Source: Chitinophagaceae bacterium
GTDB lineage: Bacteria; Bacteroidota; Bacteroidia; Chitinophagales; Chitinophagaceae
Assembly (NCBI GenBank): GCA_947446645.1
Contig: CANFHA010000010.1
Span: 1-64,000 of the forward strand
DNA: 64,000 nucleotides
Direction: 5' to 3'
In this document: positions 54,423 through 56,251 of the stretch, piece after piece
How positions within the stretch are numbered: position 1 is the stretch's first letter
Layout: each line of letters opens with the position of its first letter
Notes under the pieces: generated by a model
What the model was told of the DNA's origin: nothing
Database searches by the model: none
Seen by the model: the letters and a program-made list of their open reading frames with translations, nothing else
Made by a program: the position numbers and the translations under genes

Positions 54423-54528
54423 CTATTTTGGAATTTGAGTGCTAAATTAGTGGATTAGTTGGATAGTTGTACCCATCATATTGGTAGACCGCGTGTCTGC
54501 CCAAACTCGCGAGGTAATCAAATAAAGC

Positions 54529-55227
54529 ATGGGCTTAGATAGTGTTGAAATTGTAATGAAAGTTGAACAGGCGCTCGGTATAAATATACCAGATGCTGAA
54601 ACTGAGAAAATGGTGACTGTTGGCCATATGTATCAATATATCTGGTCGCGGGTGAACAACCAGGTAACTAGCGATTGCATTACTCAAAAGGTCTTTTTTA
54701 GATTAAGAAGACAGTTGAGAGAACAGCTGGAAATTCCGGACACTCTCGCTATAAAGCCCGCAACAAAGCTAGCGGACCTTATACCGAGAAAAGGGCGAAA
54801 ACAAAAATGGCGTAAGCTTGAAAAAGGCCTCGGCCTTCGTTTACCACATCTGCATATCCCGATACCGGTGTTTCTTTTAATGGTGCTTTCTTTCTGTATT
54901 GTGGCTGGCTTGTCATGGTATGATGCCTTTGGCATTAGTAAGTATATCGGATACCAAAACAAGCTTATTCTTCTGTTGCCTGTCATACCGGTCTTCTTCA
55001 TGACTAAATTTCTTTTTCGCATGTTGAAAACTGAGTTTGTTGAAGCGGATGTCAGGGCTCTTTCACTAAAAGTATCCGAGCTGAATTTCGAAGAATTAGC
55101 TAAAAATGGTGTGACTGAAACTGATGTTCGTCAAATAATCGATAGCATACTTGTTGAGCTGGCCGGTGTGCGGCCGGAGGAAATCGCGCCTGAAAAATCA
55201 TTTGTTTCTGATTTAGGAATAAACTAA
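54529..55227 (+). CDS. Membrane protein with acyl-carrier-protein halves at both ends, in reversed order
   Basis: A 232-residue protein. It begins MGLDSVEIVMKVEQALGINI, followed by PDAETEKMVTVGHMYQYIW, which is the C-terminal half of an acyl carrier protein starting at the DSx phosphopantetheine loop (Ser 5). A helical middle region (about 50-105) and two membrane segments (about 112-130 and 145-163) follow. It ends VRQIIDSILVELAGVRPEEI and PEKSFVSDLGIN, which is the N-terminal half of an ACP up to just before the DSx loop. An in-frame TAA lies two codons before the ATG, so no upstream half is missing by mis-annotation. A circular permutation or an intermolecular split ACP is suggested. I recall similar short-N-terminus ACP-like proteins in other Bacteroidota, but no function. 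Confidence 0.8.
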   Translation: MGLDSVEIVMKVEQALGINIPDAETEKMVTVGHMYQYIWSRVNNQVTSDCITQKVFFRLRRQLREQLEIPDTLAIKPATKLADLIPRKGRKQKWRKLEKGLGLRLPHLHIPIPVFLLMVLSFCIVAGLSWYDAFGISKYIGYQNKLILLLPVIPVFFMTKFLFRMLKTEFVEADVRALSLKVSELNFEELAKNGVTETDVRQIIDSILVELAGVRPEEIAPEKSFVSDLGIN

Positions 55228-55661: not shown

Positions 55662-55724
55662 TTCCATGGTATGTACTCAATCATATAATTCGAATTGCTT
55701 AAATTTGCCGTAAAATCAACTGTA

Positions 55725-55964
55725 ATGGAAGTAGCAGAACTGCGTGAAAAACTACATGAATATATTGATAACGCTGATGAGCAACACCTTTCAGCAATAT
55801 ATTTATTGGTGGAAGATGATATTCCCTCAAACAGCGCGGATATCTTCGATGAAGCTACAATGAACATGATTTACCAAAGAAGGGAAAATCACAGGAAAGG
55901 TATCTCAAAATCCTACACGGTTGAAGAAAGCATGAATTTTATCAGGCAACATAAAAAAGCATAA
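55725..55964 (+). CDS. Antitoxin, module 4
   Basis: A 79-residue protein followed immediately by a RelE/ParE-type toxin reading frame, with the stop and start sharing one base. The start helix (VAELREKLHEYIDNADEQHL) and the later EESMNFIRQHKK end are antitoxin-like; the middle (NMIYQRRENHRKGISKSYTV) resembles the toxin-binding segments of related Bacteroidota antitoxins. It is intact while the toxin is not. Confidence 0.8.
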   Translation: MEVAELREKLHEYIDNADEQHLSAIYLLVEDDIPSNSADIFDEATMNMIYQRRENHRKGISKSYTVEESMNFIRQHKKA

Positions 55965-56251
55965 TGGTTTACACGCTTGTCGTAAATGAAGAAGCACAGG
56001 ATGATGCGTTGGAAGCTTATTTGTATTATTAAGATCGGTTAGCCGGACTGGGTGAAAGATTTTTGAAAGAACTCACATTGCGTTATCAACAAATTGCCGA
56101 AAATCCACAACATTATAGTTATTTGCACGAGGATAAAGAAAAAACATTGCGCAGAGTAAAAATAAAGCACTTTCCATTCCTGGTAGTTTATGATTTTACC
56201 GAAACGGAAGTAATTGTATATACGGTTCATAATTGCTACAAAAATCCCTAA
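55964..56251 (+). pseudogene. RelE/ParE-family toxin with an in-frame stop, module 4
   Basis: From the ATG at 55964 the frame reads MVYTLVVNEEAQDDALEAYL, then YY followed by TAA (56030-56032), then DRLAGLGERFLKELTLRYQQ and on to a stop at 56249. Family members read YYE.Q..GLGERFL here, so the stop replaced a Glu codon (GAA to TAA, one base). The remainder of the toxin (RRVKIKHFPFLVVYDF and the terminal VYTVHNCYKNP) is undamaged. A fragment from an internal ATG at 56063 is open but lacks the first helix. The module would leave a free antitoxin. Confidence 0.85.

Follow-up and report, generated by a model that had tools for sequence, protein, structure and literature searches.

The window analysed here is a stretch of 64,000 nucleotides from a Chitinophagaceae bacterium (contig CANFHA010000010.1), and it carries on its forward strand, at positions 54529-55227, a single open reading frame of 232 amino acids ending in a TAA stop codon (55225-55227). 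Another in-frame TAA lies upstream at 54523-54525, with one serine codon between it and the ATG, and because this stop stands two codons before the ATG the frame has no possible earlier start. The initial annotation of this DNA had taken the frame to be closed on both sides and not a fragment, and the two TAA codons bear this out; a fragment or a wrongly placed start was ruled out by the upstream stop together with the ATG start of the coding sequences in all 21 family members described below. The gene can be divided into the following parts:

54529-55227 (+): whole gene, predicted membrane protein of 232 amino acids with acyl carrier protein (ACP) ends in permuted order; supported by the frame and by 21 distinct full-length family members
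54529-54663 (+): A2, residues 1-45, putative second half of ACP domain A (helices II, III and IV)
54532-54534 (+): codon of Gly2, at the place of the phosphopantetheine serine; Gly in 21/21 members
54541-54543 (+): codon of Ser5, aligned with the Thr of DSLDTVE; Ser in 20 and Thr in 1 of 21
54664-54858 (+): B1, residues 46-110, first part of a degenerate ACP-like domain B with a basic helix II; motif CxxQxxFFxLR
54859-55029 (+): predicted membrane hairpin, residues 111-167; hydrophobic windows at 110-128 and 145-163, model confidence low here
55030-55116 (+): B2, residues 168-196, possible last helix of domain B; membership weak
55117-55224 (+): A1, residues 197-232, putative first half of ACP domain A (helix I and loop), ending at the Asp/Asn that precedes the missing Ser

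In the genus of the window, the three intact copies seen are flanked by what we take to be the gene of a CoA-transferase subunit on one side and a SUI1-like gene on the other. Two small open reading frames nearby, at 55695-55964 and 56063-56251, may be a toxin-antitoxin pair of type II with a RelE/ParE-like toxin.

Similarity to ACPs was found at both ends of the protein, in exchanged order. The Pfam profile PF00550 (PP-binding) matched the window protein in two stretches (E 5.7e-6; 26.9 bits, above the cut-off of 20.8), residues 3-38 being aligned with profile positions 32-67 and the last 29 residues with positions 3-30, although the C-terminal piece by itself was weak (E 0.069). The NCBIfam ACP models also matched both ends, with scores that all lie under their curated cut-offs whereas PF00550 passes its own; TIGR00517 reached 46.3 bits, below its equivalog cut-off of 70.45, as is expected because the chain is permuted. 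Profile-profile comparison of the family with ACPs (hhalign, the pairwise E-values of which are not database E-values) gave 97.8% for the C half, 99.3% for the N half and 99.8% over 74 columns for the two rejoined, each of the three scoring above all 100 column-shuffled controls. Pfam, NCBIfam and the profile-profile comparison thus agree with what the initial annotation had proposed: judged from sequence, the halves of a single ACP lie at the two ends of the window protein in exchanged places, and the usual succession of helix I, loop, DSL motif and helices II to IV is abandoned in 21 of 21 members. We consider a permuted ACP fold very likely, the structure model discussed below adding moderate support to that of the sequences.

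The searches covered 40 relatives, 298 genomes of the order, 395 of the phylum and 394 of the family, and the final count kept 45 distinct full-length proteins, namely 21 members with the permuted ends (the window protein included) and 24 cousins. Open reading frames shorter than 200 amino acids or scoring 35 bits or less were excluded from the count, among them L113 and the broken copies L003/L021, L025 and L028/L107, and so were L082 and identical duplicates. Sorting was based on the start M-G-[L/M]-D-[S/T], found in 21 of the 45 (the motif used for sorting was looser, accepting G or A at position 2 and leaving position 5 free), and all 21 end in D-[L/F]-G-x-[D/N] followed by the stop codon. 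Because every protein sorted by its start has the matching C-terminal end, the pairing is not due to chance. The same 21 proteins lie on one side of a branch in the midpoint-rooted tree of the 45 (support 97/90), and none of the 45 is an ancestor in normal order that carries domain B. Homologues with an N half running on upstream of the ATG, which the initial annotation had named as grounds against its reading, were not found: the open frame upstream of the ATG spans between 1 and 67 codons across the 21 members, and that of the 10 members with at least 10 open codons has no significant ACP similarity (best E 0.97).

The distribution of the gene is patchy, with an intact copy in 20 of the 394 family genomes. 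Among the 40 relatives, G011 of the same genus carries a full-length copy and G001 a broken one; scans of genome contigs returned first none and then two named MAG loci, coding for the same proteins as in G289 and G011, and among the 12 records of a plasmid tblastn search none covers 80% of the query. Most relatives lack the gene and at least two genomes (G001 and G172) carry it in broken form, which makes it dispensable. Anti-phage models of PADLOC gave no match, at E up to 1, in any of the three family members scanned. Conservation along the chain is uneven, the entropy per column being 0.62 bits in residues 1-16, 1.13 in the tail of A1, 1.36 in A1, 1.38 in the rest of A2, 1.75 in B1, 1.95 in B2 and 2.08 in the membrane part, so that residues 1-16, mostly helix II, are the best conserved of the seven stretches measured and the membrane part the least. 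In the six pairs compared, all from one genus that is not the window's, dN/dS was always below 0.2 (dN 0.14-0.27, dS 0.79-1.87), and this together with the conserved layout indicates that the layout is old and has been under purifying selection, at least in that other genus.

To place the cut within the ACP domain we used an HMM built from 47 ordinary ACPs of the fetched loci, which mostly came from searches using the window protein or its relatives and in which the phosphopantetheine serine is position 46. The N halves of all 21 members start aligning at residue 3, which corresponds to HMM position 47, and the C halves stop at positions 43-45. With the C end fused to an N end shortened by 0 to 8 residues, the median scores against this HMM were 66.7, 72.7, 65.7, 61.9, 61.1, 56.6, 53.0, 50.2 and 47.2 bits, respectively. 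Dropping Met1 alone was the best register in 21/21, whereas placing Ser5 on the serine requires four residues to be dropped and gives a median of 61.1 bits. In the best register the C-terminal Asp/Asn is the residue before the phosphopantetheine serine, Gly2 takes the place of this serine and Leu3 follows. Likewise, phmmer aligned residue 2 to residue 36 of 1acp_A, the E. coli ACP chain of 77 residues, and we take this residue 36 to be the phosphopantetheine serine. The PDB ACPs whose strongest match lies in the N half begin at query residue 2 or 3 (60 of 73 among the matches listed). The rejoined domain of the window protein and the ordinary ACP of the same genome are identical at 28 of 76 positions with no internal gap, Gly2 standing opposite the serine. 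Compared with AcpP (TIGR00517 and PF00550), both halves match, the alignment is gapless once they are rejoined and helix II is kept, whereas the window protein differs in its permuted halves, in Gly2 for Ser and in the approximately 150 residues, including the membrane hairpin, that separate the halves.

The serine that accepts phosphopantetheine is consequently not present in this register, its column being occupied by Gly2 in all 21 members. The initial annotation was right in that the C half stops just before the serine and wrong in that the N half begins with it: Ser5 lies three residues later, on a threonine, and the consensus of the 47 ordinary ACPs at the columns of Asp4 and Ser5 is already Asp-Thr. 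Conservation in homologues, which had been suggested as a check, held entirely for the permuted order and in part for position 5, since Asp4 is found in 21/21 and Ser5 in 20/21, the remaining member having Thr, as does the broken Persicobacter copy L025, while a 90-amino acid Gemmatirosa relative (L087) has Ile. Met1-Gly2 is invariant in the 21, as are Gly at position -3 and Asp at position -5 of the C end, and the last residue is Asp in 17 and Asn in 4. The register with Gly2 at the serine place is well supported by these alignments, and because the Met1-dropped register is best throughout, Ser5 should not be the attachment serine. With Gly2 replacing the serine in all 21, the proposed mass shift of +340 Da on Ser5 is unlikely, and in all probability the window protein is not phosphopantetheinylated.

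The region between the two halves had been described as helical with two membrane segments. The hydropathy scan agrees with the two segments, placing them at 110-128 and 145-163, and the middle has in addition an ACP-like character of its own that had been overlooked. Residues 46-110 and 168-196, with the hairpin left out, were matched to ordinary ACPs by hhalign at 88% with a score of 36.0, the maximum among 100 column shuffles being 17.9. Residues 46-110 alone score 35.5, and because the addition of B2 hardly changes this value the membership of B2 in domain B is weak. The helix II of domain B is strongly basic (RKGRKQKWRKLEKG), no serine is found at the active place, the motif C-x-x-Q-x-x-F-x-x-L-R is kept throughout the family (Cys50 in 44/45), and the hydrophobic hairpin is located where helix III of an ACP would be. 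The middle of the protein hence resembles, with moderate confidence, a second and degenerate ACP-like domain interrupted by a membrane hairpin. A crude hydropathy scan found exactly two separate segments in 13 of the 21 members; 6 others gave additional windows that mostly overlapped and 2 gave a single segment. A membrane hairpin would bring the two chain termini to the same face of the membrane; the basic residues of the window protein (4 of 15 before the first segment, 3 of 15 after the second and one in the loop) suggest the cytosolic side for the domains, and this charge pattern is faint in some members.

The AlphaFold2 model, built on an alignment of 3 sequences, had a pLDDT of 73.9 and a pTM of 0.62. 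Its helices include residues 5-16, 22-27, 31-44, 48-67, 90-101, 112-133, 152-166, 175-185 and 197-212, and DSSP assigned single bridge residues at 30, 80, 174 and 224, of which 30 and 224 belong to opposite halves. These bridges may pair as 30-224 in domain A and 80-174 in domain B, as would be expected in two ACP-like domains. That the halves make one ACP fold, as initially suggested, thus draws support from the sequences and moderate support from the ACP-like helices and the bridges at 30 and 224 of the model. Foldseek returned 33 matches, none of them with E <= 0.001; bestrophins and other helical membrane proteins came on top (E 1.5 and up), and the ACP chains 5kp6_B, 6sm4_A and 6h0q appeared with E 7.3-9.1 and TM-scores of 0.45-0.51 by target length, an outcome that is weakly supportive, being consistent with a permuted domain inside a larger chain, and that proves nothing.

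The 24 distinct cousins, all from Bacteroidota (L029-L037, L056-L063 and L108-L116), share with the 21 members the layout, the hydrophobic middle, the degenerate domain B and a near-invariant C..Q..FY.LR motif. They differ in having no MGLD start and degenerate ACP ends, with 22 of the 24 stopping before the LGxD tail and leaving alignment columns 230-232 empty. Because proteins without the MGLD start mostly have nothing in these columns, both ends tend to vanish together. No Pfam family passed its cut-off in the four cousins scanned (L029, L030, L031 and L035). Among the cousins, L056 still ends in DDLHID and, on a long branch, clusters with the 21 (100/99); L037 has a longer and unrelated tail; and L061 alone of the 24 has a serine in the column of Gly2, where the surrounding stretch is otherwise dissimilar. 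A different kind of relative is the 90-amino acid open reading frame L087:2501-2773 on the Gemmatirosa kalamazoonensis plasmid NZ_CP007129.1, whose record as analysed carries no annotation. The encoded protein starts with MGLDIVELVM and ends with DLRLD. The N half reaches 40.3 bits and the C half alone a weak 9.1, and the rejoined protein scores best with Met1 dropped (60.5 bits). It has the same cut as the window protein, and differs from it in having no membrane hairpin and no domain B, in Ile5 and in belonging to another phylum (Gemmatimonadota). Since the cut is shared, a permuted ACP of this kind probably occurs in a second phylum. A search of 296 Bacteroidota genomes with the Gemmatirosa protein found no short permuted ACP, and the matches to this query in 100 genomes (E up to 1e-5) reach residue 80 of 90 at most.

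Three other readings of these data deserve consideration. The protein could be a working permuted ACP with a helix II that begins three residues further on and with the phosphopantetheine on Ser5, within D-S-V/I, so that it would act as a membrane-tethered acyl carrier in lipid synthesis. The near-invariance of Ser5 and the invariance of Asp4 would fit a serine that is needed, the motif resembles D-S-L, both halves are conserved and their ends would be adjacent; yet every member prefers the register with Gly2 at the serine place, ordinary ACPs already have Asp-Thr at these two columns, the residue is exchanged in one member, in L025 and in L087, and the N-half matches to ACPs of known structure begin at residue 2 or 3, all of which makes such a carrier improbable. 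Another reading is a domain swap, each C half completing the ACP of a neighbouring molecule, so that the proteins would assemble into membrane-bound dimers or chains. The sequence holds nothing that speaks against it, and the two membrane segments of the window protein leave both termini on one side, but that same hairpin already brings the chain back for closure in one molecule, and the single-chain model has ACP-like helices and bridge residues in both halves. We regard the swap as unlikely.

Finally, the chain ends themselves could be the functional group, with the amine that loss of Met1 frees on Gly2 at the place of the phosphopantetheine oxygen, next to the C-terminal Asp/Asn, and either acylated or ligated to the C-terminus. 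The strict conservation of Met1-Gly2 and of the C end speaks for this possibility, as does the same cut, again best with Met1 dropped, in the Gemmatimonadota protein that has no hairpin. On the other hand, common descent alone could preserve the ends, the clustering of neighbours gave no widely recurring gene, and we know of no enzyme that acylates or ligates such chain ends. This reading is very doubtful; if it were true, the protein would be a phosphopantetheine-free and membrane-bound acyl acceptor on an ACP scaffold.

The explanation that we favour, and to which we give about an even chance, is that of a membrane-anchored pseudo-ACP, in which a permuted domain that has lost its serine offers the recognition helix without the arm. 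The ACP domain would be circularly permuted, with both chain termini precisely at the prosthetic-group site, Met1 being probably removed before Gly2, and its halves would fold back inside one molecule. The two-helix hairpin, itself within the second degenerate ACP-like domain, would anchor the protein and hold both domains on one side of the membrane, probably facing the cytosol. Helix II of ACPs is the surface recognised by the enzymes that use them, and because helix II is the best conserved part of this family and the arm is gone, docking by a membrane-bound pseudo-ACP is our best guess. The pattern of conservation points tentatively to such a role: the pseudo-ACP may dock an ACP-dependent enzyme at the inner membrane while carrying no acyl chain itself or, alternatively, an acyl-ACP may be docked through the basic domain B. 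As ordinary ACPs are encoded in the same genome, the permuted protein is no replacement for them.

Genomic context offers little guidance on the partner. We clustered the neighbours of 22 regions, comprising 19 around intact copies, the broken G172 copy, the window and L086 (in one of the 22, L135, the ORF-picking script skipped the gene itself). The copy of G011 has the same flanking neighbours as that of the window, and outside the window's genus the neighbours differ. No neighbour gene was widely shared among the 22 regions, the commonest clusters being present in 7, six of the seven from one genus (one cluster joins the six genomes of this genus with G906 and another joins the same six with G803). 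A neighbour that we take to be MutS-like adjoins the gene in two genomes of one genus, and in 20 regions of the cousin family no neighbour is common to more than two. An operon partner was accordingly rejected, and with no widely shared neighbour no docking partner can be named.

ACPs are among the best studied small proteins, and this family, conserved in 21 distinct proteins, would provide a candidate for a natural permutant. Searches of open PMC, a scope outside which lie most subscription journals and bioRxiv, listed no title or abstract beginning that describes a natural circularly permuted ACP. A permuted ACP would allow testing which functions of ACPs need docking alone and which need the arm, and the pseudo-ACP reading hints that Bacteroidota may bring ACP-using enzymes to their inner membrane by a route not recognised so far.

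A Novosphingobium plasmid open reading frame (L117:2800-3324, NZ_CP063447.1) was considered as a further permuted ACP and rejected, the ACP HMM giving only 2.2 and 3.6 bits; by eye, the ACP-like pieces of this hypothetical protein stand in permuted order, the Ser is missing and a hydrophobic segment lies at the C-terminal end. Among the broken copies, L003:1036-1598 and L025:6001-6580 have no membrane hairpin, and in both the reading frame shifts near one and the same point of domain B, a change that could be due to decay, to sequencing error or to a split gene.
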